From the IMG/VR virus record IMGVR_UViG_3300034062_008079, positions 1 through 23,188 of that record: 23,188 nucleotides of DNA. One strand, given 5' to 3'. Positions 1,751 through 22,080 of this stretch are shown one piece after another. The notes under the pieces are model-generated. The model saw only the letters and a program-made list of their open reading frames with translations, searched no databases and was not told the origin of the DNA. This DNA is from a virus. Position numbers and translations under genes: made by a program. Position 1 is the stretch's first letter. Each line of letters opens with the position of its first letter.

Positions 1751-1757
1751 ATAAATA
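1751..1757 (-). promoter_or_regulatory. TATTTAT late-promoter-like motif, minus strand
   Basis: Read on the minus strand this is AATATTTATAA, with the first motif base 42 nt upstream of the RHH start codon. That matches the 43-45 nt spacing of the same word at the sheath, tube and gp26-like genes. On the plus strand the same site reads TATAAATA (1750-1757), the T4 late-promoter consensus, pointing at the sheath gene, so it could also act rightwards. Confidence 0.5.
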
Positions 1758-1793
1758 TTTTGAAACAAGTAAAGTTTTTGGTTTTTGAACTAA

Positions 1794-1800
1794 TATTTAT
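1794..1800 (+). promoter_or_regulatory. TATTTAT late-promoter-like motif upstream of tail sheath
   Basis: The word lies in the context CTAATATTTATTGAG, with its first base 43 nt before the sheath ATG. The spacing is shared with the tube, gp26-like and RHH genes. No sigma70-like -35/-10 pair is evident. Assignment as a promoter rests on recurrence and spacing only. Confidence 0.55.
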
Positions 1801-1820
1801 TGAGAAAATAATAAATCTAA

Positions 1821-1833
1821 TAAAAAACTTAAA
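1821..1833 (+). promoter_or_regulatory. Shared A-rich translation leader, sheath gene
   Basis: TAAAAAACTTAAA lies immediately before the sheath ATG and recurs at 5951-5963 before the tail tube ATG at almost the same distance. A shorter form (AAAAACTTGA) precedes the ATG at 10621. No Shine-Dalgarno sequence is present. It probably acts in translation initiation of very abundant proteins, which is an inference. Confidence 0.45.
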
Positions 1834-1836
1834 AAA

Positions 1837-4800
1837 ATGGCAAACACTAAAGTTTTCGTTTCTCCTGGGGTTTACACATCAGAGGTTGATTTAAGTTTCG
1901 TAGCATCAAGTGTTGGTATAACAACGTTGGGAATAGTAGGTGAGACACTGAAAGGACCGGCGTTTGAACCAATTTTTGTTGCAAACTTTGACGAATACCA
2001 AACAATCTTTGGGGGTACATCTCCAGAAAAATTTGTGAACACACAAATTCCTAAATATGAGGCGAGTTACATCGCTAAGGCATATTTACAACAATCAAAC
2101 CAATTATTTGTATCAAGAATTCTTGGTTTATCAGGTTATGATGCGGGTCCATCATGGTCTATCAAAACAATTGCTAATGTTGACCCATCAACCATAGAGA
2201 ATACGGCAACGAATTTTCAAAATCAAATTACTTTCAGTGCTGATGTTTCAAGTGGAAACCTATCCACATACACTTACGGATTTAATGAATCAACTGTTAG
2301 TGCGGCTCTGACTGGTATAGATATATACAGTACATATACTAAGGCTGATGGCTCGACATCAACAGTTGTTGATGATATTAAAAATTGGATTCAAGATATT
2401 ATCACATATTTCACTAATACAGGTATAGATGCAGATATTCCAGAGGCGTATTTTTGGGGTTCGATACCTAGTGCTTATTATAACACTTTATCTTCGTATA
2501 CCGCAAAAACCAATACATTTGATGTAAATAATTTAGTTCTTTCGGCTAATACACTCTCTAGTGGCGAAAATGATACTTGGTACTACACTACCTTTTTTAA
2601 CAATAATGGTACCTACACAGGTCTTTCTTTCTACCTGATTCAAGACCCAACGCAACCTTTAAGTGACCAATCACCTACAAAAATAGAAGGTTTTATGAAT
2701 TTGAGATGGTTCACATTTACAGGTAGCTCATATTCAAACTACGACAATCTTGTGGTTGCGACTTTGAGGTCAAGAGGTTTATCGACTTATGTGGGTGACA
2801 ATGGACCTGTTTATGAAGTTACAGGTCTTTCACAAGTATCTATGGTGTGTTCAGGTCCTTATTCTGGAATTTCTTCAAATCCATTCTCAACCTTCAAAAT
2901 TACAGGTACTACAAAGAATTCTACAACCTTTGATTTTGAAACATCCATGAGTATCACAGCAACTAATACACTTTCTAAAGTTTTTGGAACAAGTAATTTT
3001 GATAAACCAAGAACTGAGGTCCCTTTATTTTTGGAAGAAGAATACAGTAATTTACTATATTGGTCTTACAATAAAGGTTATATAAGAGGTTTGAGTTGTG
3101 ATTTAATTGAGTTAGATTCGGCAAGGAGTGGTGGTACAATATCAATTGGAAACTACTTAGAAAAATATCAAACACCTAAAACTCCTTGGATTGTTTCCGA
3201 AGTACGCGGTAACACAGTTTACCAACTATTCAAGTTCGTTACAATATCGGATGGTGATTCTGCAAATAGAGAAGTAAAAATATCATTGGCTAACATGTCA
3301 TTTGTAAATAATACATTTGATGTACTTGTTAGAGATTTTTATGATACGGACCAAAATCCTACTGTAATAGAAAAATATTCTCAGTGTTCTATGAACCCTA
3401 GTTTGAATAATTTTATCGGTAATAAAATAGGTACTACCGATGGAGAATACCCTCTGAAATCAAAATTTGTTATGGTTGAGGTTAACTCAGAAGCTCCGTC
3501 AGACGCATTACCTTGTGGATTTGAAGGATATATAACAAGAGAATATAGTGGATATACATATGTAAACTCTCCATTTTTGGTTTACAAAACCAAATATAAT
3601 ATTCCAGGTGAAACAATATTCGAACCACCATTCAACACACCTGTTGGACCGGGATATTCTCTAACATCTAACGGAGATAACTTGAGAAGAACGTTTTTGG
3701 GTGTTAGTGATAAAGTAGGTATTGATGTTGATTTCATGGATTATAAAGGAGGTCAAAATGATGGTTCTCTTTGTACTACTGAAGATTTTCCAGATTGGAA
3801 CTACAAAATTAGAGGTTTCCACATGGATAAAGAAGCAAGTGCGATTACAATATCTTCGAGTTATGTAACAAGTGGTACACCTGAATTCTACGTAGGTGAT
3901 GGAACATTCCAATCTGAACCAACAGACCAAGAAAATCCATACTTTAAAACTTTCGCAAGAAAGTTCACAGTAGTACCGGCAGGAGGTTTTGACGGTTGGG
4001 ATATATATCGTGAATCAAGGACTAATACCGACAGATTTATTTTAGGTGGAACAGGATATAAAAAAGGAGCATGTTTTTCGGCAAGATATCCTACAGCTAA
4101 TGGACAGGGTATGTTCAAATTAATCACAGTAGACCAAAACTCTGTGGATTATGCAAACACAGACTACTACGCGTATTTGTTAGGTATGCAGTCAATGGCT
4201 AATCCTGAGGCGGTTAATATAAACGTGTTTGTAACACCTGGTATAGATTATGTAAACAATCTGTTACTTGTAAATGAGGCAATCAATATTGCTGAGATTG
4301 ATAGAGCGGATTCTGTGTATATCACAACAACTCCAGATTTTGATATGTTCGTACCAACGGCATCAAATCAAGAGGACGCTATCTACCCACAAACTGCGGT
4401 AGATTATTTAATTGATTCAGCAATCGACTCAAACTATACGGCAACCTACTATCCTTGGATTTTGACAAGAGATAGTGTTACAAATACTCAAGTTTACATT
4501 CCACCAACTGCGGAGGTAACAAGAAACTTAGCACTTACAGACAACATTGCATTCCCTTGGTTCGCAACCGCGGGTTACACAAGAGGTCTTGTTAATGGTG
4601 TTAAAGCGAGAAGAAAACTTTCTCAAGAAGACAGAGATGTTCTTTACGAAGGAAGAATCAATCCAATCGCAACTTTCTCTGATGTTGGTACTGTAATTTG
4701 GGGTAATAAAACCTTACAAATCGCTCAATCAGCACTTGATAGACTTAACGTTAGAAGATTGTTATTACAAGCTCGTAAGTTGATTTCTGCGGTTTCTGTA

Positions 4801-5049
4801 AGATTGTTATTCGAACAAAACGACGATATCGTAAGACAACAATTCTTGGATGCTGTTAATCCTATTTTGGATTCTATTAGAAGAGATAGAGGTCTTTATG
4901 ACTTCAGAGTAACAGTTAGAAATACACCTGAAGATTTAGATAACAATAGACTTGTCGGTTCAATATATATCAAACCTACAAGAGCTTTGGAATTCATTGA
5001 CATAACGTTCTACATTACTCCTACAGGAGCATCATTCGAAAATATATAA
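1837..5049 (+). CDS. Contractile tail sheath protein (T4 gp18-like)
   Basis: This 1070-residue protein forms the contractile outer sheath around the tail tube. The N-terminus has the typical sheath opening, FVSPGVYTSEVDLSF, followed by a strand ending GIVGETLKGPAFEP. The C-terminal third (from about residue 849) carries the conserved polymerising core: YPQTAVDYL, a segment with PPTAEVTRNLALTDN, PWFATAGYTRGLV, and a closing part with NVRRLLLQARKLI and a terminal beta strand (FIDITFYITPTGASFENI). T4 gp18 has 659 residues, so roughly 400 extra residues sit in the middle, presumably as surface-exposed domains. The gene has its own TATTTAT motif and an A-rich leader, and is followed after 6 nt by the HAD-like gene. 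The start is supported by the leader and by the family N-terminus. Identification is very secure. Confidence 0.95.
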   Translation: MANTKVFVSPGVYTSEVDLSFVASSVGITTLGIVGETLKGPAFEPIFVANFDEYQTIFGGTSPEKFVNTQIPKYEASYIAKAYLQQSNQLFVSRILGLSGYDAGPSWSIKTIANVDPSTIENTATNFQNQITFSADVSSGNLSTYTYGFNESTVSAALTGIDIYSTYTKADGSTSTVVDDIKNWIQDIITYFTNTGIDADIPEAYFWGSIPSAYYNTLSSYTAKTNTFDVNNLVLSANTLSSGENDTWYYTTFFNNNGTYTGLSFYLIQDPTQPLSDQSPTKIEGFMNLRWFTFTGSSYSNYDNLVVATLRSRGLSTYVGDNGPVYEVTGLSQVSMVCSGPYSGISSNPFSTFKITGTTKNSTTFDFETSMSITATNTLSKVFGTSNFDKPRTEVPLFLEEEYSNLLYWSYNKGYIRGLSCDLIELDSARSGGTISIGNYLEKYQTPKTPWIVSEVRGNTVYQLFKFVTISDGDSANREVKISLANMSFVNNTFDVLVRDFYDTDQNPTVIEKYSQCSMNPSLNNFIGNKIGTTDGEYPLKSKFVMVEVNSEAPSDALPCGFEGYITREYSGYTYVNSPFLVYKTKYNIPGETIFEPPFNTPVGPGYSLTSNGDNLRRTFLGVSDKVGIDVDFMDYKGGQNDGSLCTTEDFPDWNYKIRGFHMDKEASAITISSSYVTSGTPEFYVGDGTFQSEPTDQENPYFKTFARKFTVVPAGGFDGWDIYRESRTNTDRFILGGTGYKKGACFSARYPTANGQGMFKLITVDQNSVDYANTDYYAYLLGMQSMANPEAVNINVFVTPGIDYVNNLLLVNEAINIAEIDRADSVYITTTPDFDMFVPTASNQEDAIYPQTAVDYLIDSAIDSNYTATYYPWILTRDSVTNTQVYIPPTAEVTRNLALTDNIAFPWFATAGYTRGLVNGVKARRKLSQEDRDVLYEGRINPIATFSDVGTVIWGNKTLQIAQSALDRLNVRRLLLQARKLISAVSVRLLFEQNDDIVRQQFLDAVNPILDSIRRDRGLYDFRVTVRNTPEDLDNNRLVGSIYIKPTRALEFIDITFYITPTGASFENI

Positions 5050-5055
5050 TAAAAT

Positions 5056-5904
5056 ATGATTTTGAAAGGGAAATATAAAAAACCAGCTTCCGTGTCCGAA
5101 GGGATTACGGAGGCTGGAACTCCTGACATGAAATATTATGCTTTTGATTGGGATGATAATATCATGAATATGCCAACTAAAATTATCCTAAAAAACAAAG
5201 AGGGCGATGAAGTTGGAATGTCAACAGAAGATTTTGCTCATTACAGAAGTATGATAGGTAAAGAAGACTTCCAATATGAGGGAGAGACCATTGTTGGATT
5301 CGGAGAAAATGCTTTCAGAAACTTTGGAGTGGAGGGAGATAGGAAATTTATCATCGACTCAATGACAGCACCGATTGGACCGGCATGGAATGATTTTGTT
5401 GAAGCAATAAATAATGGTTCTATATTTGCAATAATAACCGCACGAGGACATACACCTAAAGTCTTGAGAGACGCTTGTTACAATCTAATATTATCAAACA
5501 GGGATGGAATTTCATTTATGGAATTAATCAAAAACTTGGAAAAATATAGAGACATAGCAGGATTCGAAGGGAAACAAGATAAAATGGATACTTTAAATGA
5601 GTATCTTGATTTATGTAGATTTTACCCTGTTTCTTATGGTGAGGGCTCGGCGACTAGTCCCGAAGAAGGTAAAATTAAAGCAATGAAAGAATTTATCTCT
5701 TACATCAAAGAAATTTCAAACACAATTGGAAAAAAAGCATTCTTTAAAAATGATATTAGTAACAATTTTATCCCTGAACCAACATTAGGTTTTTCAGATG
5801 ATGATATAAGAAATGTTGAAACCATGAAAAAACATTTCGAGGATGAACCTGATAATATCTTACAAACCTACTCGACTGCGGGTGGAATTAAAAGAAAATA
5901 TTAA
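5056..5904 (+). CDS. HAD-superfamily phosphatase-like protein
   Basis: This 282-residue protein carries the haloacid dehalogenase motifs in order. Motif I is YYAFDWDDNIMNMPTKI, with the likely nucleophile D31 and general acid/base D33. Motif II is AIITARGHTP, with T128. A candidate motif III lysine lies near residues 206-211 (EEGKIKAMKEF). Motif IV is GFSDDDIRNVETM, with the acidic group D249-D251. All catalytic positions appear present, so an active Mg-dependent phosphohydrolase is plausible; the substrate is unknown. Position 35 is Asn where many HADs have Thr or Val. The first 24 residues precede the fold and end at an internal Met25; the upstream ATG was chosen because it follows the sheath stop by 6 nt with an A-rich leader. 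Its place between sheath and tube genes is odd, since T4 genes 18 and 19 are adjacent. The superfamily is well supported; the role is not. Confidence 0.8.
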   Translation: MILKGKYKKPASVSEGITEAGTPDMKYYAFDWDDNIMNMPTKIILKNKEGDEVGMSTEDFAHYRSMIGKEDFQYEGETIVGFGENAFRNFGVEGDRKFIIDSMTAPIGPAWNDFVEAINNGSIFAIITARGHTPKVLRDACYNLILSNRDGISFMELIKNLEKYRDIAGFEGKQDKMDTLNEYLDLCRFYPVSYGEGSATSPEEGKIKAMKEFISYIKEISNTIGKKAFFKNDISNNFIPEPTLGFSDDDIRNVETMKKHFEDEPDNILQTYSTAGGIKRKY

Positions 5905-5922
5905 AAAAAATAAATTTGATAA

Positions 5923-5929
5923 TATTTAT
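5923..5929 (+). promoter_or_regulatory. TATTTAT late-promoter-like motif upstream of tail tube
   Basis: The first motif base is 45 nt before the tube ATG. Here the word lies inside a perfect inverted repeat, TGATAA-TAT-TTATCA (5917-5931), so orientation cannot be read from this copy alone. Its role is inferred from recurrence upstream of other late genes. Confidence 0.5.
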
Positions 5930-5950
5930 CATAAAACAATAAACAGAAAT

Positions 5951-5963
5951 TAAAAAACTTAAA
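5951..5963 (+). promoter_or_regulatory. Shared A-rich translation leader, tail tube gene
   Basis: TAAAAAACTTAAA is identical to the 13 nt at 1821-1833 before the sheath gene and lies 17 nt (first base) before the ATG, against 16 nt there. The two genes encode the two most abundant tail proteins. The function is inferred. Confidence 0.45.
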
Positions 5964-5967
5964 TAAA

Positions 5968-6456
5968 ATGGCTGATTTACTAATGAAAATGCCCATACCG
6001 TATGAACCAAAAAGACAAAATAGGTTCATCTTGAGATTTCCATCATCTTTGGGCATAAACGAATGGTTTGTGGAATCAACTGCGAGACCACATATTACAA
6101 TTAATCCTGTTGAGATTCCTTTTCTGAACACTTCAACATACGTGGCAGGAAGATTTACTTGGGGTGTACTAAACGTAAAATTCCGTGACCCAATCGGACC
6201 ATCCGCTTCTCAAGCACTTATGGAATGGGTACGTCTATGTGCTGAATCAGTTACAGGTCGTATGGGTTATGCTGCGGGTTACAAGAAAAATGTAGACCTA
6301 GAAATGTTAGACCCAACAGGCGTTGTTGTTGAAAAATGGATTTTGGAAGGAACATTCTTATCAGACGTTAATTTCGATTCTTTGGCATACAACACGGACG
6401 CTTTAGCATCCATTTCCGCATCGATGAGAATGGACCGTTGTATCTTAGTATACTAA
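5968..6456 (+). CDS. Tail tube protein (T4 gp19-like)
   Basis: This protein stacks as hexameric rings to form the inner tube through which DNA passes. Its 162 residues match T4 gp19 (163 residues) almost exactly. Recognisable parts are the N-terminal PYEPKRQNRFILRFPSSLG, the strand ARPHITINPVEIPFLN, the segment GVLNVKFRDPIGPSASQAL, and the C-terminal block running from LEMLDPTGVVVEKWILEG to SMRMDRCIL. This is the usual tube beta-sandwich order. The gene has its own TATTTAT motif and the same leader as the sheath gene, and is followed by a hairpin terminator, so it is probably expressed as a strong separate unit. Identification is very secure. Confidence 0.93.
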   Translation: MADLLMKMPIPYEPKRQNRFILRFPSSLGINEWFVESTARPHITINPVEIPFLNTSTYVAGRFTWGVLNVKFRDPIGPSASQALMEWVRLCAESVTGRMGYAAGYKKNVDLEMLDPTGVVVEKWILEGTFLSDVNFDSLAYNTDALASISASMRMDRCILVY

Positions 6457-6474
6457 AAAATCTTTATATATCAG

Positions 6475-6513: not shown

Positions 6514-6516
6514 GTT

Positions 6517-6523
6517 TATTTAT
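6517..6523 (+). promoter_or_regulatory. TATTTAT late-promoter-like motif upstream of gp26-like gene
   Basis: The word begins 4 nt after the terminator T-tract and 43 nt before the next ATG, the same spacing as at the sheath gene. A promoter directly behind a terminator would start a new transcript for the chaperone and tape measure genes. Confidence 0.55.
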
Positions 6524-6559
6524 GTCCGTGAACACTTATCTTTTCAGTAAAAAAAAAAT

Positions 6560-7318
6560 ATGGAACAAGAATTATCTAATTACGGACAGATGAATTTTAA
6601 TTTACCACATGATTTGGTACCACTCCCCTCTAATGGAGTTTTTTACAAAAATAAAAAAAAATCTGTTAAAGTGGGATACTTAACCGCCACCGATGAAAAT
6701 ATTCTTTTGAACACATCACAAGGGAATCGGGAAAGTGTTGTATTGAGTCTTTTACGTAATAAACTTTACGAATCTGATTTGAGACCTGATGAATTATTAA
6801 CAGGTGATGTTGAGGCGATTCTAATATTTTTAAGGAACACGGCATTTGGTCCTGAATACGAGGTTAGTCTTACTGACCCACAAACAGGAAAAAAATTCAG
6901 TTATACGTTGTTACTGGATGAATTAAATATAAAAAAAACAGACAATAAACCAACCGAAGATGGATTGTTTGTGGTGAAACTACCTAAGTCAGGGGATGAG
7001 GTCAAATTAAGACCATTATCATTAGCCGATAGTTTGGACATAGAAAAAATGGTTGAGTCTTATCCCACCAACAGGGTCGCCCCCAAAGTTACATGGAAAT
7101 TAAATAAACAAATAACATCTATAAATGGTGAAACAGATAAAGGTCAAATTGCAAAATATATCGAGACAATGCCGATTATGGATTCTAAATTTGTTAGAAC
7201 TTTTTTGAACCAAAATGAACCGAGATTAGATTTACAAAAAGAAGTAACCGCCCCATCAGGAGAAAAAGTGATTGTTGATATCACATTTGGGGTTGAGTTT
7301 TTTCGGCCTTTCTATTGA
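6560..7318 (+). CDS. gp26-like baseplate hub / tail assembly chaperone
   Basis: This 252-residue protein resembles the T4 gp26 (T4 baseplate protein) family. Residues 14-45 carry the hallmark NLPHDLVPLPSNGVFY followed by a strand and GYLTATDENIL. The middle region has EAILIFLRNTAFGPEYEV and a zinc-ribbon-like fold without the cysteines. The C-terminus ends in a strand and FFRPFY. The gene lies between the tail tube and tape measure genes, the position of the G-type tail assembly chaperones in many tailed phages, and it is overlapped by a second frame that looks like a T-type extension. Its stop is TGA, whereas TAA is used almost everywhere else in the window. The start is the only good ATG and follows a run of A residues without a Shine-Dalgarno. 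The family call is fairly strong; the exact role (hub component or tape-measure chaperone) is not settled by sequence alone. Confidence 0.75.
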   Translation: MEQELSNYGQMNFNLPHDLVPLPSNGVFYKNKKKSVKVGYLTATDENILLNTSQGNRESVVLSLLRNKLYESDLRPDELLTGDVEAILIFLRNTAFGPEYEVSLTDPQTGKKFSYTLLLDELNIKKTDNKPTEDGLFVVKLPKSGDEVKLRPLSLADSLDIEKMVESYPTNRVAPKVTWKLNKQITSINGETDKGQIAKYIETMPIMDSKFVRTFLNQNEPRLDLQKEVTAPSGEKVIVDITFGVEFFRPFY

Positions 7319-7466
7319 TTATAGGAAAGTTTTATCTGACGAATATTATTATTTCACAAAGTTTTTAAACGTATCTTACACAGATTTTTTATTACTACCA
7401 ACTTGGTTGCGAAAATATATGCTCGATAAACTAATCGAGGATAATACTCCCAAAAATAAAAATTAG
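7272..7466 (+). CDS. Tail assembly chaperone extension (probable frameshift product)
   Basis: This short open frame overlaps the end of the gp26-like gene by 47 nt and lies in the +1 (equivalently -2) frame relative to it. It has no ATG near its beginning; the only start-like codon is a TTG at 7272, and the first in-frame ATG lies near the very end. The meaningful peptide, from about 7305, runs GLSIDYRKVLSDEYYYFTKF then NVSYTDFLLLPTWLRKYMLD. It resembles the small proteins paired with gp26-like or gpG-like chaperones, with a helix, an aromatic-proline centre and a basic helix. Entry by frameshift at the T6-C tract 7298-7304 would give a fusion of about 301 residues. It ends in TAG, 25 nt before the tape measure start. 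Independent translation from TTG is the less likely alternative. Confidence 0.6.
   Translation: MLISHLGLSFFGLSIDYRKVLSDEYYYFTKFLNVSYTDFLLLPTWLRKYMLDKLIEDNTPKNKN
7298..7304 (+). other. Candidate programmed +1 (or -2) frameshift site
   Basis: The zero frame reads GAG TTT TTT CGG, and the overlapping frame reads TTT TTC GGC. A P-site Phe-tRNA on the second TTT (7301-7303) can slip one base forward to TTC and still pair well, while the next zero-frame codon is CGG, an uncommon Arg codon beside the prevailing AGA. A -2 slip to TTT at 7299-7301 is also possible. The zero-frame TGA follows 12 nt after the tract. A -1 slip would not reach the extension frame. Confidence 0.5.
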
Positions 7467-7469: not shown

Positions 7470-7476
7470 TATTTAT
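7470..7476 (+). promoter_or_regulatory. TATTTAT late-promoter-like motif upstream of tape measure gene
   Basis: The word begins 22 nt before the tape measure ATG, in the short-spacing group with 10601 and 22074. It lies just after the TAG of the chaperone extension. If transcription starts a few bases downstream, the 5' leader would be very short. Confidence 0.45.
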
Positions 7477-7491
7477 AATTAAACTATAGTT

Positions 7492-10400
7492 ATGCTCGAC
7501 GACAAAAATAAAACGGAGTCCGACAATGAAGAAGGTGGGAAAAATAAAAAGGAAAAAGGATATGTTCCAGGAACATTTGATGCGCTTAAAGAGTCCTTAA
7601 AAGACGTTAAGTCAAAAAGTGATGACGTAGGGGCAACATTCTCTACTATACAACAAGTAGTTATAGGGTTCAACAAAAACCTTGGCGGTTCCGCAGACTC
7701 GGCAGCCCTTTTAGGAACTAATTTTACCGATGCGGCTCAGAAACTTCTATTACTTGATGGTAATATAAAATCTCTTGAAGCGGGTATTGTTTCTGCTGCA
7801 GAAAAAAACTTGGAAATACAAGAGGCGACAAACCGAATGTATATCGCAAGTTCCGAAGAATTAGCCGGTATAGTTGCTTCACAACAAGCCTCAGGAGTTT
7901 TATCTAAAACCTTAATCACAAACTTCAAAGACCAAGGATATGCGTTAAGTCAAATACCGAAAACTATGGAGAAGGTGATTCAAACTTCCAGGGCTCTTGG
8001 TGTCAACGTTGCCGCGGTATCTGAATCGGTTGTTACAAATATAAGTAAACTAAATACTTTTAATTTCTCGAACGGTGTTGAAGGGCTCACTAGGATGGCT
8101 GCACAAGCGGGTATGATTGGTGTCGACATGGTAAAAATCTTCAAGATAGCTGAAGACCTTTTCGACCCCGAAAAAGCAGTTGAATTAGCGTCTTCATTAC
8201 AAAGACTTGGTGTGGCAACAGGAGATTTGATTGACCCACTTAAACTGATGGACCTCGGACAAAACAATCCACAAGAATTACAAAACCAAATTGTTGAAAT
8301 GTCAAAAAGGTTCACCTTCTTCAACGAACAGAACCAAAAATTTGAAATATTACCAGGGGCCAAAAGGGAGTTGAGAGAAATTGCTTCCGCCATGGGAATG
8401 AGTGCAGATGAACTGGCAAAAATGGCTTTAGGAAGTTCTGACCTTGCAAAGAAAATGAGTGAAATTAGATTCCCTGAATTAGGTATCGAACTGCCTGAAG
8501 ACCAAAAAACGTTGATAGCCAACATGGCAGAAATGAAGGATGGTGAATATAAAATTAAATTTGAAGAAACAAAAGAAGTTGATGGAGAAAGAGTAAAAAC
8601 AGGTAGAGTTGTTGAAAAATCTGTTGCACAATTAAACCCTGAGGACCTCGAAAGTTTGAAATATCAACAAACATTACAAGCAAAAAGTTTGGAAGATATT
8701 GCCTTGGAATCAATGGAGTTGGAAAGAAGAACCGCAAATGCTGCAGAAGCCTTAGTAAGTACAGGAAGGGGTACCTTAGCAACAAATAGATTAGCAAATA
8801 AAGGTCAAGAACTTTTATCTCACACCGTAAAAGACTTGGTAAACTTAACAAAAGAGGCTGCCACCGCTAAGGGTGGTAGAGAGTTCATGGACCAAGGGAT
8901 TAGTGACATTAAAAAATTGACTACTGATGTAATGTCAGCCATGAAAGATGGAAAAATTACTGATGAAGAAAAAAATGATTTAATGAAAGTCGGAAAAGGG
9001 TTGGACGAATTGATGCAAAAAACTATGGGTAAAGGAGGTGAAGTTTTCGAAAAACTTATTAAATACGGGCAAGACTTTCCTGGTGAAGTGGGAAAGGCGT
9101 TGAATGCAGCAACCATAGCGATAGAGAATACAGGCGAAAAAACTGAATCTGAAAAAACAAGTTCTTTAGATAATCCACAAGACAATAGACGATTGGATGC
9201 AAAAATAATGGACAGAAATTTGGACGAAAATAAAACACAAACTCAAAATATAACAACATCAAATGTAAACAACCAAACACAAAACACGCAAAATGTAAAT
9301 AATACTACAAACAAAAATGATGTAACTACAAATAATAATACGTCTAATACTACCCAATATGACCAAGTAATTTATCAAATGACACAAAGTTTACCTGAAG
9401 CCTTCAGTAATGTAAAATTACCTGATGTAAATATTGATTTAAATCCTTTAACTTCATTACAAGAAAAACAACTTACGACAAATGAAAATTCATTAACGGA
9501 ATTAAAAACAATGAACAGTACTATGAAAAGTGAAAATGAAACTTTGATTTCATACATGTCAAGAACATCTACACCAACTCAAAATCCTACTGCTTCAAAC
9601 ACAAATATTACAACAAATAATAACCCAACGGATAATTCAACTACAAATAATAATACGTCTAATACTACCCAATATGACCAAGTAATTTATCAAATGACAC
9701 AAAGTTTACCTGAAGCCTTCAGTAATGTAAAATTACCTGACGTAAATATTGATTTAAATCCTTTAACTTCATTACAAGAAAAACAACTTACGACAAATGA
9801 AAATTCATTAACGGAATTAAAAACAATGAACAGTACTATGAAAAGTGAAAATGAAACTTTGATTTCATACATGTCAAGAACATCTACACCAACTCAAAAT
9901 CCTACTGATTCAAACACAAATATTACAACAAATAATAACCCAACGGATAATTCAATTACAAATAATTCTACTGTAACAAATAATGATAACAAACAATTTG
10001 TAACAAATGATAATAAACAAACGAACACAATACAAGCGCCTTTAGCGTTACCTGAGGAACCAGTTGTATCTTCACTACAACAACTATATAACATGCCTCA
10101 AATTTTAAACGATGGTATGGTAACAGGTTTGGATAAAATATCGGCACAAAATAAAGAAAAAGATAATTTATTAATAGGTAAACTTACCGACATTACTGAT
10201 AATTTAGGACCTGTGATGCCACAAGAAACCCCCTCCAATCCTTTTTACCAACCAACAATTCCAAATAATACAATATCGCCAACTGTACAAACACCTGAAG
10301 TTGCAATGGCAACAAACACGACAACAAATAATGTTACAGAAAGAATTGTTGAATCACCAATGAATAATGTCGGGGGTACCATAGAATACAGAGGGGAGTT

Positions 10401-10600: not shown

Positions 10601-10607
10601 TATTTAT
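10601..10607 (+). promoter_or_regulatory. TATTTAT late-promoter-like motif upstream of 1554-residue baseplate gene
   Basis: The word begins 20 nt before the ATG, in the short-spacing group, in the context AATCTATTTATTAG followed by AAAAACTTGA and the start codon. The last part resembles the leader shared by the sheath and tube genes. Confidence 0.5.
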
Positions 10608-10620
10608 TAGAAAAACTTGA

Positions 10621-13600
10621 ATGGCAACACCATCTACGTTACAGCAGGCACAACAAGCGGGACCTAAATCACAGTCACAAACTGAAGGTAGTTTCCTATC
10701 TTATGAATCATCACAAGTATTCAGAGAAGAGTTAATTATTAAAAATTTAGTTCCATATAATATCGCTGGTATCAATTCAGAACCGCAAGGAACTGTCATA
10801 TACCAACAAAGCCCACCTGATTTAGCTGCCACAGAACAATTATTTTCCATAGATGGGTTAGGGTTAACACCTGTTATAAGAAATGAAACTCCTGACCAAT
10901 TAATAGTCCCTTCTACATATTTAGCTTACAATATATTAACTAAAACTAATCCTATTGGAGATAAAGGTCCGTTATCTAATGATTCATATTTAGCAAAAAT
11001 TGGTGCACAATCACTAAAAAAATCTTTGTTAGAAACAAACGCATTTTTCACTGAGCAATTAATCAGTGAGCAAAATACTATTAGTTTCAAAATTACAACA
11101 CCTGACGTTAACGATACTTTTGAAAGTAAATTATCTGGGGCATACGTACCGGCATCGCCAATACCAGGTGATTACTTTTTGGATGGGTTGAACAAAAGAA
11201 CGACAGATACTTTAGGTGAGGCGATAAATCAACTTGCAGGTAGAAGTACAACTGTTGGAGGTATTTTTAGTGGTAGTTTAACAAGGGCAATTACACCTTC
11301 GCAAATATTTTTAGAAAACACAAATGAGGGTCAAAAAAGTTTGATGTTTTCTAATTTGTCCTATAACATTTACAGACCTGCTTATGCTGATTCGGCATTA
11401 GGAGGTATTGCCGGAAATTTATTAACTACAGGAATTAACAACATATTAGATAATTTCGGTTTACAATTACCTGGTGCTTATTACATCGGTTCATCGGTTT
11501 CTGAACCTAGTTTTGCGACCTCACCAATCAATCAAGTACCAATCGATGTTTACGGTAGAGATACTCAAGCAATTGTTTTAGGTCCTGATGTTTTGGGTAA
11601 GGATTATGAAGGTAATGAAAGTAGAATAAATTTCGGATTAAAATCGAGCGCCTTAATAGACCAAGGAAATTTAGAAAGTGATTTGATTTGGGTCTCACCT
11701 AAGTACAAGGCTGGTAATTCGTCTTTCTATTCAACAGCAATTGACTTTAAACCTGGCTCCATTTTAGACGACACTCAAAGATTAATTGATGCCGCTGATA
11801 AACTACAAGGTGAGGCTAGATTAAAACACGTAGGTAACGCAATCAATCAAGTCAGTAGAACATTTAATGATGGATATAGAAATATAACAAAGGGCTCCAA
11901 AGTAAGACAAGTAACATACAAAAATGGTAAAGCGGAAGTGGGAACAGAATATTGTAGAATTTTCACCAAGGACGCTCCGTATGCCACTTATGAAAGATTA
12001 CAAAAATCTGACGGTATAGTAAATTTCGGAAGAAAATTCTCATATTCAGTTTTAGATAATACATATAACCTGAACATTTATCCTACAAAAGAACAACAAG
12101 GTGGTGTCACACCATCTTGGTCACAAGGCGGAAAAGTGAAAAAATATATGTTTTCGATTGAAAACTTGGCGTGGAAAGACTCAAAAAAACCTGGTTTTAA
12201 TGTTCAAGATTTACCACCTTGTGAGAGAGGACCAAACGGGGGGAGAATTATGTGGTTTCCACCTTACGATTTAAAATTTAATGACAATTCAAGTGCTGAT
12301 TGGCAACAAACAACATTTTTAGGACGACCTGAACCTGTTTACACTTACAGAAACACTTCTAGAAATGGAACGTTGAGTTGGAAAATAATTGTAGACCACC
12401 CATCGGTATTAAATTTAATAGTTGATAAAATATTAACCAATGAAATCGATTCAAATGCTGATAAGGTTTTAGAATCATTTTTTGCCGGATGTCAGACCTA
12501 TGATTTATATGAGTTTGCAAAAAGATTTAACACCGTAGGGTTAAATGATTTACAATACATCCAAGAAATAATTTCAAATGCCTCTCCGACAGAAACAACA
12601 AAAATATTAAAAGAAATACCAAAAGAACCGCAGTCCTCAAAGCCTGAATTCATTACACAAACGATTACTCCTGAGAAATTTCCTTCCTCAAATTACGAAA
12701 AGTTAGGATTTTATTTTAACAACGATATTCCAAAACCTGCCGAAAGCGGAACAAATGTTAAGTCATTCGAAAACTATTACAATTCCTATTTTTCAGAAAA
12801 AAACACATTCGTTTCAAAAACAATTGATGATGAAGAAAAAGTTGGAAAATTCTTTGATGATGTTATTAAATTCAATTATGAAAATACAAATTCAGGGGCA
12901 ACGAGTTTGATTACTAAAATTTATGAATTTTTTGAAAATAACTATATAAAAAATATAACAATTAATATGAGGGGTTGCGCATCGGCGAGCGCATCCGAAG
13001 AATACAATAAAAAGTTAGCTCAACGGAGAATAGATTCGGTCAAAAAATATCTTTTAGAATATAAAGTATCGAGCGGTTCCACGATGATTTCGTTGGACAA
13101 ATATAAAAATAATATAAAAATAACTTCTGTTGCCGAAGGGGAAAACGCAGAAAACGTAACAACAAAGTCAAGTGGTGGTGGATTCGAGACAGTATCAAAA
13201 TGTACTGAAAATCCCAAAATTAATGGTCAAACAGTTACAGGTCCAAACTCCATTTATTTATTACCCTCAATGGCTTGTAGAAGTGTTTTTATAGATAATA
13301 TAAAAACAGAGGAGACTCCACCGCAAACTAGACAAGTTCCCGCAAATTCGCCTGAACAAAATAATACAAAAAATGGGAATGCTAACAATAATGAAAATAA
13401 AGACAAAATAACTCCTGGTAAAGGTCCACAAGTAAGTGAGCCAATTGTCGAGTTGAGAAGCGAGAGAGGTATAAGTAAAAAAATATTGAGGTTATTATTA
13501 AGTGAATGTAACTATTTCCAAGCTTTAGAACAAACAAGTCCATTCTTATATAGAAGTTTAAAAGAGAAATTAAAATATTTCGAACCAGCATTCCATTCTA

Positions 13601-15285
13601 CAACACCCGAGGGACTTAATTCAAGAATTACATTTTTGAATCAGTGTTTGAGACCTGGTGACACCATCCCAACAATAGGAACTGACGGAAGACCGATTTA
13701 TAACGATGCGGTAAACACTGCTTTTGGTAGACCACCTGTTTTGGTTTTGAGAATAGGTGATTTCTATAATACTAAAATAATTCCGAGAAGTTTGCAATTC
13801 AGTTATGAGCCTTTATTATTAGATATGAATAGAGAAGGAATCGGAGTTCAACCAATGTTAGTTGGTGTTACATTTGCTTTTGACATCATAGGTGGTATGG
13901 GGCTTGCTAGACCTGTTGAGGATTTACAAAATGCACTATCTTTCAATTACTACGCTAATACAGAAATATACGATGAAAGGGCGGTAGCCACGGAAGATGT
14001 TACGGCTTTAGACGAAATATTTACTAAAGAGGCTATCGAAAACGCTGAAGAAGTACCGGCCCCAAAACCACAAAATAAAATACAAAATGCTGGTGGTACA
14101 ACTATTGGTGAAGTTTTGGAAACAAATAGTGATGGGGCTGCCGTGACTGGTAAAATAAGTTATAGAAAAGTAATCAAAGAATTTATCAAAGAACTCGGAG
14201 ACTACTTCAAATTGATACCGAATACCTCAGAATCAATATCCAAAAATTATAATTTTTACGTATGGCAATTTGCTAGTAAAGATAGAATATATACACTTGG
14301 TAAATTTCCACCAACTGTGAATACAAAAATATACGGAAAACCAAAAAATTTGGAACAAACATTCAATGTTGCCTTTGATTATAGTATCAAACAAATTAAT
14401 GATACAACTTCCCAAGATGGAAATTTAATCGTACAAGAATTCTTAAAGAAGGGGTTCCAAGCTCCAGTTATTAACCAACTAAAAAATAAAATGATAGAAT
14501 TCATAAACACACAGATTAAATCTAATTTAGTGGTCGACTTGGGTAGACAATTAACGGAATTGAATACTCAACAACAAAAAATAATTGAATATATTGATAA
14601 GTTGAACGTAGTTTATGGAAATCCATTTTCAAACGATGGTTACATAAAGGCAGATGGTTCACCTGTGGCGTATAATATAACAACGATAGGAACCGCTTTA
14701 GCCGATATACAAGTTGATTTGAACACGATTAGGACAGATATGAATGAGTATATATCTCTATTACAGGCACAAAATTTGAAAATATTACCATCTAACTCAG
14801 TGACTGACCCATTTTTTTATCCTTCTGATTTGATAGGTGACACAGAAATGTATTTTTTCATGATAATGTGTCAAACATTTACAGATAAAAATAAATTAGA
14901 GGCCTTCAGTAATTTCGTCTTTCCAAATGATGTAATTGATGGTAAAACTGTGAACGACCCACAAAGTCCGAAAAGATTTTTGAACCGATTATTGGGGTTA
15001 GATTTTTGGGATAGTTTTAATTTAATATTCGGAGAAAGTTTTTATGATAGATACACAAGAGCTAAAAATAAATTAGAAAAAGCACCAACAAATGCTATTG
15101 GGGGGCCTGATATACCGTTCAAATATAAAAACTATGCCGCCTTCAAACTATCACAAATAAATAACGAAAGAAAAGTTAATTACACTACTAACGTACCTAA
15201 TCAAGCAGATGCTGAAAACGCATTACTAAGTCTATATCAGTCCGTCCCAACCGAAGGAGAAGACTTTAACGGAAAAAAATTATAA
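10621..15285 (+). CDS. Large baseplate/tube-cap-like protein with OmpA-like domain
   Basis: This 1554-residue structural protein follows the tape measure gene, where T4-like phages encode the hub and tube-cap proteins gp48 and gp54. Residues about 561-600 (FLGRPEPVYTYRNTSRNG, then LSWKIIVDHPSVLN) and about 1045-1115 (FSYEPLLLDMNREGIGVQPM, then VTFAFDIIGG and LQNALSFNYYANTE) look like two tube-type beta segments. Between them, about residues 690-900, lies an OmpA/MotB-like domain: a strand with LGFYFNNDIP, then INMRGCASASASEEYNKKLA and RRIDSVKKYLLEYK. That domain binds peptidoglycan in cell-envelope proteins. The usual TD of the GHTD loop is replaced by Ala-Ser, while an Arg of the helix (R802/R803) is kept. 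A Pro/Asn-rich linker follows at about 905-945. The start ATG follows a short A-rich leader. A gp48-OmpA-gp54 type fusion is an inference; the general baseplate role is more secure. Confidence 0.65.
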   Translation: MATPSTLQQAQQAGPKSQSQTEGSFLSYESSQVFREELIIKNLVPYNIAGINSEPQGTVIYQQSPPDLAATEQLFSIDGLGLTPVIRNETPDQLIVPSTYLAYNILTKTNPIGDKGPLSNDSYLAKIGAQSLKKSLLETNAFFTEQLISEQNTISFKITTPDVNDTFESKLSGAYVPASPIPGDYFLDGLNKRTTDTLGEAINQLAGRSTTVGGIFSGSLTRAITPSQIFLENTNEGQKSLMFSNLSYNIYRPAYADSALGGIAGNLLTTGINNILDNFGLQLPGAYYIGSSVSEPSFATSPINQVPIDVYGRDTQAIVLGPDVLGKDYEGNESRINFGLKSSALIDQGNLESDLIWVSPKYKAGNSSFYSTAIDFKPGSILDDTQRLIDAADKLQGEARLKHVGNAINQVSRTFNDGYRNITKGSKVRQVTYKNGKAEVGTEYCRIFTKDAPYATYERLQKSDGIVNFGRKFSYSVLDNTYNLNIYPTKEQQGGVTPSWSQGGKVKKYMFSIENLAWKDSKKPGFNVQDLPPCERGPNGGRIMWFPPYDLKFNDNSSADWQQTTFLGRPEPVYTYRNTSRNGTLSWKIIVDHPSVLNLIVDKILTNEIDSNADKVLESFFAGCQTYDLYEFAKRFNTVGLNDLQYIQEIISNASPTETTKILKEIPKEPQSSKPEFITQTITPEKFPSSNYEKLGFYFNNDIPKPAESGTNVKSFENYYNSYFSEKNTFVSKTIDDEEKVGKFFDDVIKFNYENTNSGATSLITKIYEFFENNYIKNITINMRGCASASASEEYNKKLAQRRIDSVKKYLLEYKVSSGSTMISLDKYKNNIKITSVAEGENAENVTTKSSGGGFETVSKCTENPKINGQTVTGPNSIYLLPSMACRSVFIDNIKTEETPPQTRQVPANSPEQNNTKNGNANNNENKDKITPGKGPQVSEPIVELRSERGISKKILRLLLSECNYFQALEQTSPFLYRSLKEKLKYFEPAFHSTTPEGLNSRITFLNQCLRPGDTIPTIGTDGRPIYNDAVNTAFGRPPVLVLRIGDFYNTKIIPRSLQFSYEPLLLDMNREGIGVQPMLVGVTFAFDIIGGMGLARPVEDLQNALSFNYYANTEIYDERAVATEDVTALDEIFTKEAIENAEEVPAPKPQNKIQNAGGTTIGEVLETNSDGAAVTGKISYRKVIKEFIKELGDYFKLIPNTSESISKNYNFYVWQFASKDRIYTLGKFPPTVNTKIYGKPKNLEQTFNVAFDYSIKQINDTTSQDGNLIVQEFLKKGFQAPVINQLKNKMIEFINTQIKSNLVVDLGRQLTELNTQQQKIIEYIDKLNVVYGNPFSNDGYIKADGSPVAYNITTIGTALADIQVDLNTIRTDMNEYISLLQAQNLKILPSNSVTDPFFYPSDLIGDTEMYFFMIMCQTFTDKNKLEAFSNFVFPNDVIDGKTVNDPQSPKRFLNRLLGLDFWDSFNLIFGESFYDRYTRAKNKLEKAPTNAIGGPDIPFKYKNYAAFKLSQINNERKVNYTTNVPNQADAENALLSLYQSVPTEGEDFNGKKL

Positions 15286-15287: not shown

Positions 15288-15611
15288 ATGGCATTAGAAT
15301 ATTATAATAGGTATCAACAATTTTTAATTAATGGGTCACAAACGGTTGTACCTTTTGTTAAAATCCCAACCAAGTCAACAGATAAAAAATATATTTACAA
15401 AGTCGGAATGTCTAGGTTGGATAAAGTATCCCAACAATATTACGATAGCCCTTTTTTCGGGTGGTTAATATTAGCCGCTAATCCGGAATTTGGTGGTAAT
15501 GAATTTATTATAACAGATGGAACCGTTTTATCTGTCCCTTTCCCTTTATTATCGTCCATTCAAGACTATAATAATGCTTTAGAAACACAATTTTACTATT
15601 ATGGCAGATAA
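15288..15611 (+). CDS. gp53/LysM-like baseplate wedge protein
   Basis: This small 107-residue protein probably sits at the baseplate, linking hub and wedge. Residues 36-90 have a LysM/gp53-like pattern: IYKVGMSRLDKVSQQYYDSP, then FFGWLILAANPEF, then an acidic turn and ITDGTVLSVPFPLLSS. This is the strand-helix-helix-strand order seen in the LysM-like domains of P2 gpX and T4 gp53. T4 gp53 is longer (196 residues). The gene follows the 1554-residue protein by 2 nt and overlaps the next gene by 11 nt (the ATG at 15601 lies inside its last codons), so the three genes are tightly coupled. No membrane segment or signal peptide is seen. A gpX-like tail protein is the main alternative. Confidence 0.65.
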   Translation: MALEYYNRYQQFLINGSQTVVPFVKIPTKSTDKKYIYKVGMSRLDKVSQQYYDSPFFGWLILAANPEFGGNEFIITDGTVLSVPFPLLSSIQDYNNALETQFYYYGR

Positions 15612-18600
15612 TTCAGAAAATATATTTGTAGAATTTGATTATCAAAATATCATAATTGTAGACCCAAACAAAATTGTTAATCAAGATGGTGAAGTAAAAG
15701 ACAGATTAGTCAATCATGAAGATTTAGTAATGTATGCTAATTTGGAGTGTTCATTAGTGCCAAGAACCAAATTGAGATTGGGTATAGAACAAAGTGATGT
15801 TCAGACTGTTTCGTTAGCGAAAATTAATTTTCTAAAACCGAGTGATAAAAAGTATCTAGATAACAGATATACAGAATTATTTACAGGTACTATAGAGAAA
15901 AAAGGTGAGGCACCACCACAAACATTCAGATTTTACGAGCCAGTACCTGATAATAATACAGGGATAATTGAAAGTTCTCTATTAGGTATCACTAATATTA
16001 ATTTCAATATCAACACAAGTTTTTTACCCAAAATAACAATTACAATGCAAGATGTTAGAGGAAGAGCCTTGTTTGAACTTGGAAATAGTTCACCTTACGC
16101 AGCTTTCTTTAACCTACCCTACCCTTCATTTTTCTTAACGTTGAAAGGGTATTACGGTAAAGCGGTAAGATACCAATTGATGTTACAAAATTTTCATGCT
16201 AGATTTGATAATAGTTCAGGTAATTTTGAAATAACTTGTACATTTTTGACATATAAGTTTAATGTACTTTCAGATGTCTCCATGAGTTTCCTATATGCAA
16301 CACCATACATGTATCCGACAACTGTTTTACAAAAAACTACTTCAGGTAATCCTGATAACAAAAATGGTGTGGCAACTCCAAAAAGTTATACATTAGGTTA
16401 TCAAAAAATAAAAGAACTTTATAATGAATATAAATCAAAAGGGATTGTTGCCGACAATCTCCCTGAATTAACTCTAACGCAACTCCAAAGAAAATTAGAT
16501 ACTTTAATCAAAGACACGTTGATTAATTGGGGTCAAGTTAACATGGAACCTTTGACAAACATAGAAACATTCCAAAAAAATCTAAATCAATTAAAAGGAG
16601 AGGTTGTAATCAAAGAAGATTCATGGGTTAAGAAAAATTTGGACTTGAAAAATCCTTTATTGTTAAAATCAGGTACCAAAGTTTATTTTTTGAAAGACCC
16701 AATCAGACAAGATAAGACAAAAGAAACGCAAGCAAGAGTTGATTTAACAAATATTCTAAACACCTATAACACACCACTAAATGAAAATCCTACATTAGGT
16801 GTAAATGGTACGTACACTGTAGGAGGTAAAACAGAAAAATCAGCAATAAGTAATCCTGTAAATTTTATACCATCACAACAAGACCCGGGAAAATTACCAA
16901 CGTGGATTAATTTTAATGTACAATTAAATGACATCGATTTTGAAAAAACTTACTCATTAGTTACAAATAAAAATCCTTTAGCAACCGAAAACAAACAAGA
17001 TTACGATAAGTTCAAAGAAGACTTGACAAACAAACTGTCATTATCACAACCAACAACACCAGGGTTAAATCAACCCCCACAGTACGATAAATTTTATGGA
17101 TATGAAAGTGTCGGCCTATTTTTGAATTTAGTTTCACAGATGGAGAAATCTGTTTCAATCAAAAAAGAAGAAATATTGAAACAATTATCAGATGAATTGA
17201 ATAACGTAATCAAGAACGGTTCACTTGGAAAAAGTGGATTAGGGTTTAGCCCGACAATTAGAAATGTTCTTGCTATTTTATTTGCTAACGGTGAAGCCTT
17301 TCTTAGATTGATGGATGATTGCCATAGAGAGGCTTGGAATAAACGAGATAGTGATGTAAGAAAAAAAGCAATACTTGGCAAGGTATCATCGGACTCGGCA
17401 AATGACTTTGTCTATCCATGGCCTCAGTTGATTGTTGAAAAAGAAAAAGACGGAGTTAAAAAGTATGAGGTGACTTATCCTGGAGATGTAAATGTATTAT
17501 CACAAACCGAAGGGTATTTGTTTGATGAATGGCCTGAAATTGAATTTGTTGAAGAGTTGTTAGGAGGTCTTATGAAAAGAGACCCATCTGATTCAGGATT
17601 TTCATCAGAAGAAGGTAATTCAAATACTGTGAATAGAATATCTTTAAACGCAATTGAATTTCCAATATCAAATGTGATATACCAAAATAAAGAAGAGGTA
17701 AAATTTTTCTACGAGTTTTGGGAAAGAATGGGTTCTGTGTCAAACTTTTCTAGATTAAGTAGAGGAGACGCCTCCAATTTCCAAATGGATGAAATAATTA
17801 GTCAGACGGAGTCTACTAACATGTTGAAATCCTTGGGGACAGAAAACGTTTTTTTGATTAAAAATTTGAAAGAATATGATATTTCTCCAACAACAATTAT
17901 CCCAATATTAGCCACAATATCAAATGGAGGTGAAGGGGAATCATATCAAAAATTTATTAGAGGATACTACTCAACACCTTATATTACAAATTACTCTAAA
18001 AATGATTATAAAATATTTGATAATACAATATTCACAAAATTAAATACTGCTGGTTCATCAGATGTTAAAATTGAAAAGTCTGATGATTTGAATAAATTTA
18101 TTGAATCCACAACCGCAGAAAAATTTGATTTACTAGACACTTACCCAATTACTAATACGACTTGGATAAAGTCTAACGTTTCCGATGGACAAAACTCATC
18201 AAATATAATAAATAAAACAAGTAAGGTTATAAAATATAATGGAGCAATCAATGCTATTGCAAACTATAACACTGATGATGGGACACCACTCACCAAAAGA
18301 CCAATAACCTATTTTAATTATCTTAATAATACTCCAATATTATCGTTTGACAATCCGCCAATAAATTCAGACACCCTCAAAAACTTTTATACCAATAGAA
18401 CTAGACAGTCTTTCGATTCCAAGTCAACACAATTACCGACTGAAGGTACGATAGTCTATCAAAACTACAGCGGTGGAGTTCAGAGTGAACAAACAACCTC
18501 AATGTTGAATACACCATATTTCATAAATGCAATTATGAAAGGTGTCTATAACTTCAAAACAAGTGTCCAATATCCTTACAAAGCGGCGGCGTACTTGTTT

Positions 18601-21600: not shown

Positions 21601-22056
21601 TTTTGGTTGAACTCTAATAATAGTTTTGGTTTCAGTAATTATGAAAACAATTTTTCTAATTTAAGGTTGGATTTGAAAGTCAACAAAGAAGAAAAGAAAC
21701 TTGGAAATAGAAAAACTTATTTATCTAAAAATTATTATTGTGCAACTTATAATAATGAGGAGCTTACCTTCGGAGTATTTCAAACGATAGAAGACTCTCT
21801 TAAATTTATTGTCGAATATTTAAAAACAAAAATAAATCTATCCTTAGTCAAGGGTTCAGATATAAAAAATGCCCAAGGTAAGATAAATGATGTGGATGGA
21901 TTGGCAAAATCAATCGATGAATTCCTATACACCTCTTATCCTGTTGAGGATAAAAATATCCAATATGAAAGAGATATCTCCAAAACACAAAAATGCCAAG
22001 ATAGAATATCTCAAATTAAATCGGCAATCCAACAAGCAGAAACATTAGGTTTATAA
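15601..22056 (+). CDS. Giant baseplate hub protein (gp27/gpD-like region)
   Basis: This 2151-residue protein occupies over a quarter of the window. The N-terminal part (about 140-225) contains ITMQDVRGRALFELGNSS and YPSFFLTLKGYYGKAVRYQ, a beta-rich structural domain. The middle 1500 residues are low in recognisable motifs. Residues about 1821-1885 (CSVQMMGNAMIQPMMYFNLR, then FAGSYMILGVNHNIQPG, then FEGVRQSIFSLP) resemble the hub domain of T4 gp27 and P2 gpD-type proteins, which form the trimeric centre of the baseplate. A Gln/Asn/Ser linker at about 1910-1940 leads to a C-terminal domain (about 1940-2151) with LNSNNSFGFSNY and FGVFQTIEDSLKFIVEYL. That pattern recalls the fold of glucosaminidase-like domains, but I see no clear catalytic Glu. 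It overlaps the upstream gene by 11 nt. The hub role is fairly likely; the length points to fusion of several baseplate parts. Confidence 0.65.
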   Translation: MADNSENIFVEFDYQNIIIVDPNKIVNQDGEVKDRLVNHEDLVMYANLECSLVPRTKLRLGIEQSDVQTVSLAKINFLKPSDKKYLDNRYTELFTGTIEKKGEAPPQTFRFYEPVPDNNTGIIESSLLGITNINFNINTSFLPKITITMQDVRGRALFELGNSSPYAAFFNLPYPSFFLTLKGYYGKAVRYQLMLQNFHARFDNSSGNFEITCTFLTYKFNVLSDVSMSFLYATPYMYPTTVLQKTTSGNPDNKNGVATPKSYTLGYQKIKELYNEYKSKGIVADNLPELTLTQLQRKLDTLIKDTLINWGQVNMEPLTNIETFQKNLNQLKGEVVIKEDSWVKKNLDLKNPLLLKSGTKVYFLKDPIRQDKTKETQARVDLTNILNTYNTPLNENPTLGVNGTYTVGGKTEKSAISNPVNFIPSQQDPGKLPTWINFNVQLNDIDFEKTYSLVTNKNPLATENKQDYDKFKEDLTNKLSLSQPTTPGLNQPPQYDKFYGYESVGLFLNLVSQMEKSVSIKKEEILKQLSDELNNVIKNGSLGKSGLGFSPTIRNVLAILFANGEAFLRLMDDCHREAWNKRDSDVRKKAILGKVSSDSANDFVYPWPQLIVEKEKDGVKKYEVTYPGDVNVLSQTEGYLFDEWPEIEFVEELLGGLMKRDPSDSGFSSEEGNSNTVNRISLNAIEFPISNVIYQNKEEVKFFYEFWERMGSVSNFSRLSRGDASNFQMDEIISQTESTNMLKSLGTENVFLIKNLKEYDISPTTIIPILATISNGGEGESYQKFIRGYYSTPYITNYSKNDYKIFDNTIFTKLNTAGSSDVKIEKSDDLNKFIESTTAEKFDLLDTYPITNTTWIKSNVSDGQNSSNIINKTSKVIKYNGAINAIANYNTDDGTPLTKRPITYFNYLNNTPILSFDNPPINSDTLKNFYTNRTRQSFDSKSTQLPTEGTIVYQNYSGGVQSEQTTSMLNTPYFINAIMKGVYNFKTSVQYPYKAAAYLFLNSLPTTTLKEKYKSSVDGTTQELDYLFASLKKFGAVHKLPYPLLLKYGALWHRYKTKVQNDEDILDGIWNDFNFRYNYDPSTSASTKTYTFTGLGQTDVTKITLQNSNLFGNLTADTMDLGFYPKLINDFSFCLNGYEIFTTSEFGIGPFSANTVGFNDQDIQNGISSGLTVTRTSSNFAALSFDKSNTGRTFVMNSYSVALNNIDDTSFFTIPSVGNNFNQSFNECFGNINSTLLSPDKIIEPFNNRAIFNGSIRTFWMSPNYGWFNNSQVDKPEYNQYVKKIYQNTNIQDNFTFTKLAEYSYFDELTSTFKKDILDDLEQLFLKFSQSKFNFTPIDPTQLSSATPSESVLINQNFHKMFTEMMRLPINDRNLDFVSLQKKQYSNINSLIKNFLEYDILFKYGNPGEYNKQLFLSFTIPATRKYGVTSVADPIKPTTYSNYTPNALPTINNPFSLDLIKQNFPDAWESLLLNVGFSEVEGIKYTESGSTIFDFFIDNNVEFSPENIVSLSPLIKIYATQKNKDTTYNKTKFQSDLTNYVSKNNDFQNLILTSTFVKMKKNLADVTFSPQSNFSSELIGNQGKVDIWEALKSTNDRWISGYDLKYKTIFEDVLLIDRASRDIGDKVLVDVFSLNNLLTNINVTTNLLYYVQSILQMNNFQVMSLPSFVNFYNVQDPVKNAIPKVENSLEFANDMFGTHPNVDYRKSGPKMVCFYAGKPSEHLQINKPEYAYQDDGIYFQKLDSNTLIDNLVNKNDWGKSNRVVGFTVDMGVQNQGVFTNISVSQDNGKPTSETLQQLNDMANQAGNRKTSTQNVSLYNLYKTRSYGCSVQMMGNAMIQPMMYFNLRHVPMFAGSYMILGVNHNIQPGSFTTSFEGVRQSIFSLPDIDSFIQGIMTNLLNTVFTQVKQENAKKEAQSQNTAQSKQNQQSNSKNIEPSKSDTCKRNSEFEDFSSIQPPNLTTISYKDMIDVITGITNNTDYSTVPNNQFVKTKLNYTIWSLFWLNSNNSFGFSNYENNFSNLRLDLKVNKEEKKLGNRKTYLSKNYYCATYNNEELTFGVFQTIEDSLKFIVEYLKTKINLSLVKGSDIKNAQGKINDVDGLAKSIDEFLYTSYPVEDKNIQYERDISKTQKCQDRISQIKSAIQQAETLGL

Positions 22057-22073
22057 TTTACCATAAATGATGA

Positions 22074-22080
22074 TATTTAT
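22074..22080 (+). promoter_or_regulatory. TATTTAT late-promoter-like motif upstream of 75-residue gene
   Basis: The word lies in the context GATGATATTTATATATA and begins 21 nt before the ATG at 22095, matching the short-spacing group (20, 21 and 22 nt). Confidence 0.5.

Follow-up and report, generated by a model that had tools for sequence, protein, structure and literature searches.

The window analysed here, a 23,188-bp stretch of an IMG/VR virus record, encodes a T4-like tail module together with several large proteins without a family (Table 1). Its tail sheath protein is only ~31% identical to those of the closest annotated phages. One of the large proteins, of 1554 aa (10621-15285), contains a stretch that, judged by eye, resembles an OmpA-type peptidoglycan-binding domain (INMRGCASASASEEYNKKLAQRRIDSVKKYL). 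A 60-aa open frame on the minus strand is present twice (9375-9557 and 9690-9872, 315 bp apart), and this duplication, which includes QYDQVIYQMTQSLPEAFSNVKLPDVNIDLNPL, lies within the 1025-aa gene as a direct repeat. A small open frame (7319-7466) that ends in DKLIEDNTPKNKN occupies the space from the hub gene to the gene starting at 7492; similar ends are found upstream of the same gene in relatives, and the frame may represent a genuine small gene whose start is uncertain.

Table 1. Genes and sequence elements in the window, with distances counted from the first base of each word to the ATG; promoter assignments, transcription starts and leaders are predictions.
Feature	Position	Strand	Evidence and context	Predicted transcription start
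Arc-like gene	1551-1715	-	Match to phrog_582 Arc-like repressor	
TATTTAT, putative promoter element of divergent Arc-like gene	1751-1757	-	42 before minus-strand ATG 1715; 51/61 distinct relatives	
AGTAAAGTTTTT block between the two divergent elements	1768-1779		In most sheath upstream regions compared	
TATTTAT, putative promoter element of sheath gene	1794-1800	+	43 before ATG 1837; kept in 64/64 relatives	~1805-1807 (AAA), leader ~31 nt
Tail sheath gene	1837-5049	+	phrog_23, E 9.5e-58	
TATTTAT, putative promoter element of tube gene	5923-5929	+	45 before ATG 5968; 55/55 distinct relatives	~5934-5936
Tail tube gene	5968-6456	+	phrog_4542, E 1.7e-21	
TATTTAT copy directly after terminator T-run, before hub gene	6517-6523	+	43 before ATG 6560	
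Hub gene	6560-7318	+		
TATTTAT, putative promoter element of 1025-aa gene	7470-7476	+	22 before ATG 7492; 5/5 relatives	~7481-7483, leader ~10 nt
TATTTAT, putative promoter element of 1554-aa gene	10601-10607	+	20 before ATG 10621; 3/3 relatives	~10612-10614, leader ~8 nt
Wedge subunit	15288-15611			
TATTTAT, putative promoter element of 75-aa gene	22074-22080	+	21 before ATG 22095; window sequence, gene outside relatives' coverage	~22085-22087
TATTTCT, one-mismatch form	23084-23090	+	38 nt before ATG 23122; window sequence	

An earlier note had proposed the word TATTTAT, which stands in the gaps of this DNA, as a late promoter element. A recount on the window reproduced all of the coordinates and distances to the ATG given there, and likewise the two plus-strand copies in coding DNA (13255 and 21718, with no others); antisense copies lie inside plus-strand genes at 5407, 15157 and 18208. 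Counted across the entire window, the word shows no enrichment (12 found, 15.7 expected). In the 660 bp of gaps, however, there are six sense copies; 5000 dinucleotide-preserving shuffles of these gaps gave 0.56 on average and never more than 4.

Conservation of the individual copies was assessed in related phages. The word is located 37-47 bases before the sheath ATG in every distinct relative with readable upstream DNA, with diverged flanks, and the matching orientation of the copy serving the minus-strand gene is preserved in most relatives (Table 1). Also conserved upstream of the sheath gene is the block at 1768-1779, in the form AGTAAAGTTTTTxG, which has few other copies per genome and is possibly the operator of the Arc-like protein. 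No TATTTAT was found upstream of operon-internal genes (0/16 and 0/14 relatives). The assumption that all six plus-strand gap copies are elements holds only in part: any TATTTAT within 70 nt occurs in just 10/53 relatives for the copy at 6517, which is without the downstream A-run that the other plus-strand sites have and is probably a chance occurrence rather than a promoter. The copy at 22074 has AAAAAA at the expected offset after the word.

Genes were called in four relatives of 104-224 kb, and later in two of 321 and 309 kb, the former a record with matching ends. In these relatives the word is concentrated in gaps and rare in coding DNA: sense TATTTAT occurs at 5.6-10.7 per kb in gaps versus 0.24-0.27 per kb in coding DNA of the four, and at 6.3-6.8 versus 0.09-0.22 per kb in the two larger genomes. 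In an unbiased ranking of gap 7-mers TATTTAT came first in both sets (198 found versus 27.5 expected, and 196 versus 20.6). The gaps are ~78% AT and at least one copy, that at 6517, resembles a terminator tail, so that the word could be a by-product of AT-rich gaps or terminator T-runs. This is extremely improbable given the shuffles and the conservation described above, and given that most other permutations of the same composition occur only 17-50 times, compared to 198 for TATTTAT. Co-directional gaps contain 304 sense versus 53 antisense copies, and convergent gaps have almost none (0.5 per kb and strand). Furthermore, the enrichment extends to relatives from the rumen (39-45% GC over the loci fetched, sheath 32-40% identical), in which both the sheath gene, at a distance of 38-41 bases, and the tube gene are preceded by TATTTAT. 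On a 287-kb rumen contig with 40% GC it occurs 43 times versus 3.9 expected; there the C-extended form CTATTTA ranked first, and A is present at +11 in 35/37 sites. The by-product reading is thus refuted for the class as a whole, although single copies may be due to chance. The reverse-reading control of the pattern search was uninformative for TATTTAT, because the word is its own mirror.

In the window, the distances from word to ATG fall into groups of 42-45 and 20-22, as the earlier note had described. This division does not carry over to the relatives, where two main classes, 11-14 and 20-24, are followed by a tail reaching ~50. The pooled distances are bimodal (53 sites at 11, 49 at 12 and 93 at 20-24), with a trough at 15-19 that holds 13 of 247 sites versus 65 expected (P 5e-18 against a uniform distribution). 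The 11-14 class, which has a leaderless geometry, comprises 17-45% of word-bearing gaps depending on the genome, and is absent from the window. At the leadered sites, A is found 11, 12 and 13 bases after the first T in 82, 97 and 89%, respectively, and, apart from the base adjoining the word, no upstream position is above 0.21 bits, i.e. there is no -35 element. The probable start of transcription is therefore near position 12, counted from the first T, a position that in the 11-14 class would coincide with the A of the ATG. We infer the start-site numbering by analogy with the host-type promoter, for which the T of the element is at -12 in Flavobacterium johnsoniae (PMC6847099). The 20-22 group of the window had been described as giving nearly leaderless transcripts, but its leaders would be ~8-10 nt long, and the truly leaderless sites would be those of the 11-14 class.

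The same data bear on whether the signal acts in DNA or in RNA. Shine-Dalgarno sites are nearly absent in these phages (2-4%, versus 23/36 in T4), so another initiation signal could be expected, and the word is found only upstream of genes; UAUUUAU could then be a processing site or a ribosome-loading element in the leader, with no promoter involved. We regard this as very unlikely, since the word is absent upstream of operon-internal genes, and may stand anywhere from 11 to 50 bases before the ATG with the interval between word and A-run unchanged. In addition, a terminator-like hairpin precedes the word in 42 of 96 tested co-directional gaps (44%; 0 in shuffles), and word-bearing gaps tend to be without a host-type promoter. 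A comparison of promoter and translation signal on tRNA genes was limited to four tRNAs in four genomes, too few to be informative. The promoter part of the earlier proposal is therefore well supported, by conservation, sense orientation, enrichment, the fixed A-run and the position between terminator and gene, and we infer a promoter rather than another 5' element. In the literature searched, TATTTAT was nowhere named as a phage promoter.

The timing suggested earlier is plausible. The word is present upstream of the T4-core homologues for the sheath (6/6), the gp21 head protease (4/4), the terminase (2/4), the portal (2/4) and the capsid (1/4), and upstream of the gp41-like helicase gene in 4/6 relatives. 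Since the helicase gene carries the word and the major capsid genes are mostly without it close by, we refer to a phage-specific promoter class and leave late timing as likely.

A second gap word, TATCTTTG with TTTG at -33, corresponds to the Bacteroidota housekeeping promoter type. Its distances to the ATG (12 sites at 12, 2 at 14-21 and 28 at 22-33) show the same gap as those of TATTTAT. The two words usually mark different gaps, those with TATTTAT tending to be without TATCTTTG, and the host-type promoters are clustered in certain parts of the genome. These promoters, the near absence of Shine-Dalgarno sites and the binning of contigs of two distant relatives with rumen Bacteroidales point to Bacteroidota as hosts; a third, partial relative without TATTTAT was binned with Pelagibacter. 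Phages from lakes, as large as 331 kb and carrying a tail sheath along with a head gene block like that of T4, have likewise been assigned to Bacteroidetes, and similar phages are reported to be active in lake metatranscriptomes (PMC9723584). They may belong to the same clade as the phages described here. The bS21 gene, which similar lake phages are known to have, was looked for with a simple pattern search that gave nothing.

As to which protein reads the word, a gp55-like late sigma factor had been suggested as something to look for, and a candidate was found in the relatives. A search with a T4 late sigma model gave six weak hits. The strongest, in the 224-kb relative G002 (17573-18151, minus strand; Sigma70_r2 and r4_2 above cut-off), is an ECF-type sigma rather than a member of the gp55-like family; as none of the other three genomes compared was found to encode it, it was rejected as a general reader. 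The other five are to one conserved protein of ~250 aa, with >500 relatives in IMG/VR, a family length of ~236-265 aa and a C-terminus different from that of gp55. Its gene is on the sheath contig in 10 of 12 large contigs, and is present in both rumen MAGs; in G002 and G003 it is absent together with its whole gene neighbourhood. The gene itself is without TATTTAT, and the next gene has the word.

The relationship of this family to gp55 was detected by profiles: phmmer with T4 gp55 alone found nothing, and sequence searches of the PDB with the family gave nothing relevant. An hhalign comparison of the family profile (including divergent members) with T4 gp55 gave a probability of 90.6% (E 1.3e-6, 115 columns) in the sigma-2 region, and weak matches to phrog_234 and Sigma70_r2 fall on the same residues, below the Pfam cut-off. 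The predicted fold is similar to T4 gp55 (7d7c_F; Z 8.0, 117 residues, 3.6 A), which ranks among many sigma factors, a Z of ~8 for a helical domain not being decisive according to the comparison tool's own note; Foldseek alone gave no match below E 0.001. In T4 gp55, Y97 stacks on the A at -12, and H95 and T99 contact -9 and -8 (PMC7892883). In the pairwise profile alignment, Y97 is aligned to a tyrosine invariant in the gp55-like family, and H95 and T99 to other residues. With the T4 box numbered -13 to -6, TATTTAT would keep T-13, A-12, T-11, A-8 and T-7 and change A-10 and A-9 to TT.

Members of the family are also encoded by LR756508, Mel-JY01 and RM378. No TATTTAT upstream pattern was found in LR756508 or in RM378 (11 genes checked), and in Mel-JY01 the word is upstream of three tail genes and not genome-wide. 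Because these three phages have the family without genome-wide TATTTAT, sigma and word covary imperfectly, and the sigma specificity may have shifted between family members. The RM378 member, of this Rhodothermus phage, is a distant one, Rm378p020 (1432-2226), annotated as hypothetical and adjoining the helicase gene. Mel-JY01 has in its gaps TTGCATAC...CGTATATTTGTA sites resembling Bacteroidota housekeeping promoters, and the assignment of its recorded host, Microcystis, may deserve a check.

Host polymerase with a host sigma, either ECF or modified housekeeping, could instead read TATTTAT without the gp55-like protein, given that the word has T-12, A-11 and T-8 in common with the Bacteroidota -7 element and that G002 encodes the ECF-type sigma mentioned above. 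We consider this unlikely: host-type promoters in the same genomes keep the G and the -33 TTTG, neither of which the TATTTAT sites have, the ECF gene is confined to G002 among the four genomes compared, and the clade carries a conserved gp55-like gene. Our preferred reader, the gp55-like protein, is a likely one judging from these sequence comparisons.

In conclusion, TATTTAT very probably serves as the -10-type element of a promoter class specific to the phage, in a large clade of T4-like phages of Bacteroidota, with a gp55-like sigma as its likely reader. We hypothesize that the phage-made sigma, on host RNA polymerase, would read a single -10 box without a -35 box, much as at a T4 late promoter, and that transcription would start from the A ~12 bases after the first T. 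Where the start codon begins with that A, the mRNA would be leaderless; at other sites a short A-rich leader of ~8 nt or more would precede the gene, leaders of 3-7 nt being avoided. For the C-terminal 99 residues of the gp55-like protein, a fold was predicted with fair confidence; it resembles sigma region 4 weakly (6pb5, Z 5.1; 6onu, Z 5.0) and no better than it does unrelated helical proteins. A T4 review states that a fused late sigma has yet to be found in nature (PMC2988020). That the protein is such a natural fusion, in the manner of gp55 joined to gp33, of a gp55-like part and a region-4-like C-terminal domain, acting on a -10-only promoter to program leaderless mRNAs, is a tentative idea that we find doubtful.

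This provides a testable expression scheme for very abundant uncultured large Bacteroidota phages, with one gene set under host-type promoters and the other under the phage promoter and its candidate sigma. Taken with the mapped gp55 contact residues, the change of two bases relative to T4 could reveal how a phage sigma shifts specificity, and the sharp avoidance of 3-7 nt leaders would document, in natural sequences, what bacterial translation can accept when Shine-Dalgarno sites are missing.

Three known systems are relevant for comparison. Leaderless bacterial genes led by a TA box (TANNNT ~12 bp before the start codon, PMC3160421) share the geometry of the 11-14 class; unlike them, the sites described here have a phage-specific word and a phage sigma candidate and not a host -10 box. 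The Bacteroidota housekeeping promoter, TTTG-N-TAHHTTTG, occurs in the same genomes, and its distances to the ATG are bimodal in the same way. However, TATTTAT sites have neither the TTTG at -33 nor the TAHHTTTG at -7 that TATCTTTG sites in these genomes possess, and thus lack the -33 box and the final TTG.

The T4 late promoter (TATAAATA; gp55, gp33 and gp45) consists of a single -10-type box without -35 conservation, followed by AT-rich DNA; the diverged sigma that recognizes it contains a sigma-2-like domain (PMC2988020, PMC7892883). The promoters proposed here are similar in having a -10-type box about one helical turn before the predicted start, no -35 signal and AT-rich DNA after the box, and tail genes carry the box in T4 too. 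The word had been interpreted as lying in the opposite sense to the T4 consensus. TATTTAT is indeed also part of the reverse complement of TATAAATA, because the word is near-palindromic. At the peak spacings, TATNNAT has TT in 206 cases and the AA of the T4 consensus in only 11; the same kind of search in T4 found TATAAATA in the sense orientation, 22-36 bases before the ATG. The best reading is that TATTTAT would be the T4 late element read in the same sense, not the opposite one, its two central bases being TT instead of AA. The two systems differ, besides these two bases, in the sigma candidate, which is distantly related to gp55 and has an extra C-terminal helical domain, and in the placement of many promoters here for leaderless mRNA, with almost no Shine-Dalgarno sites.
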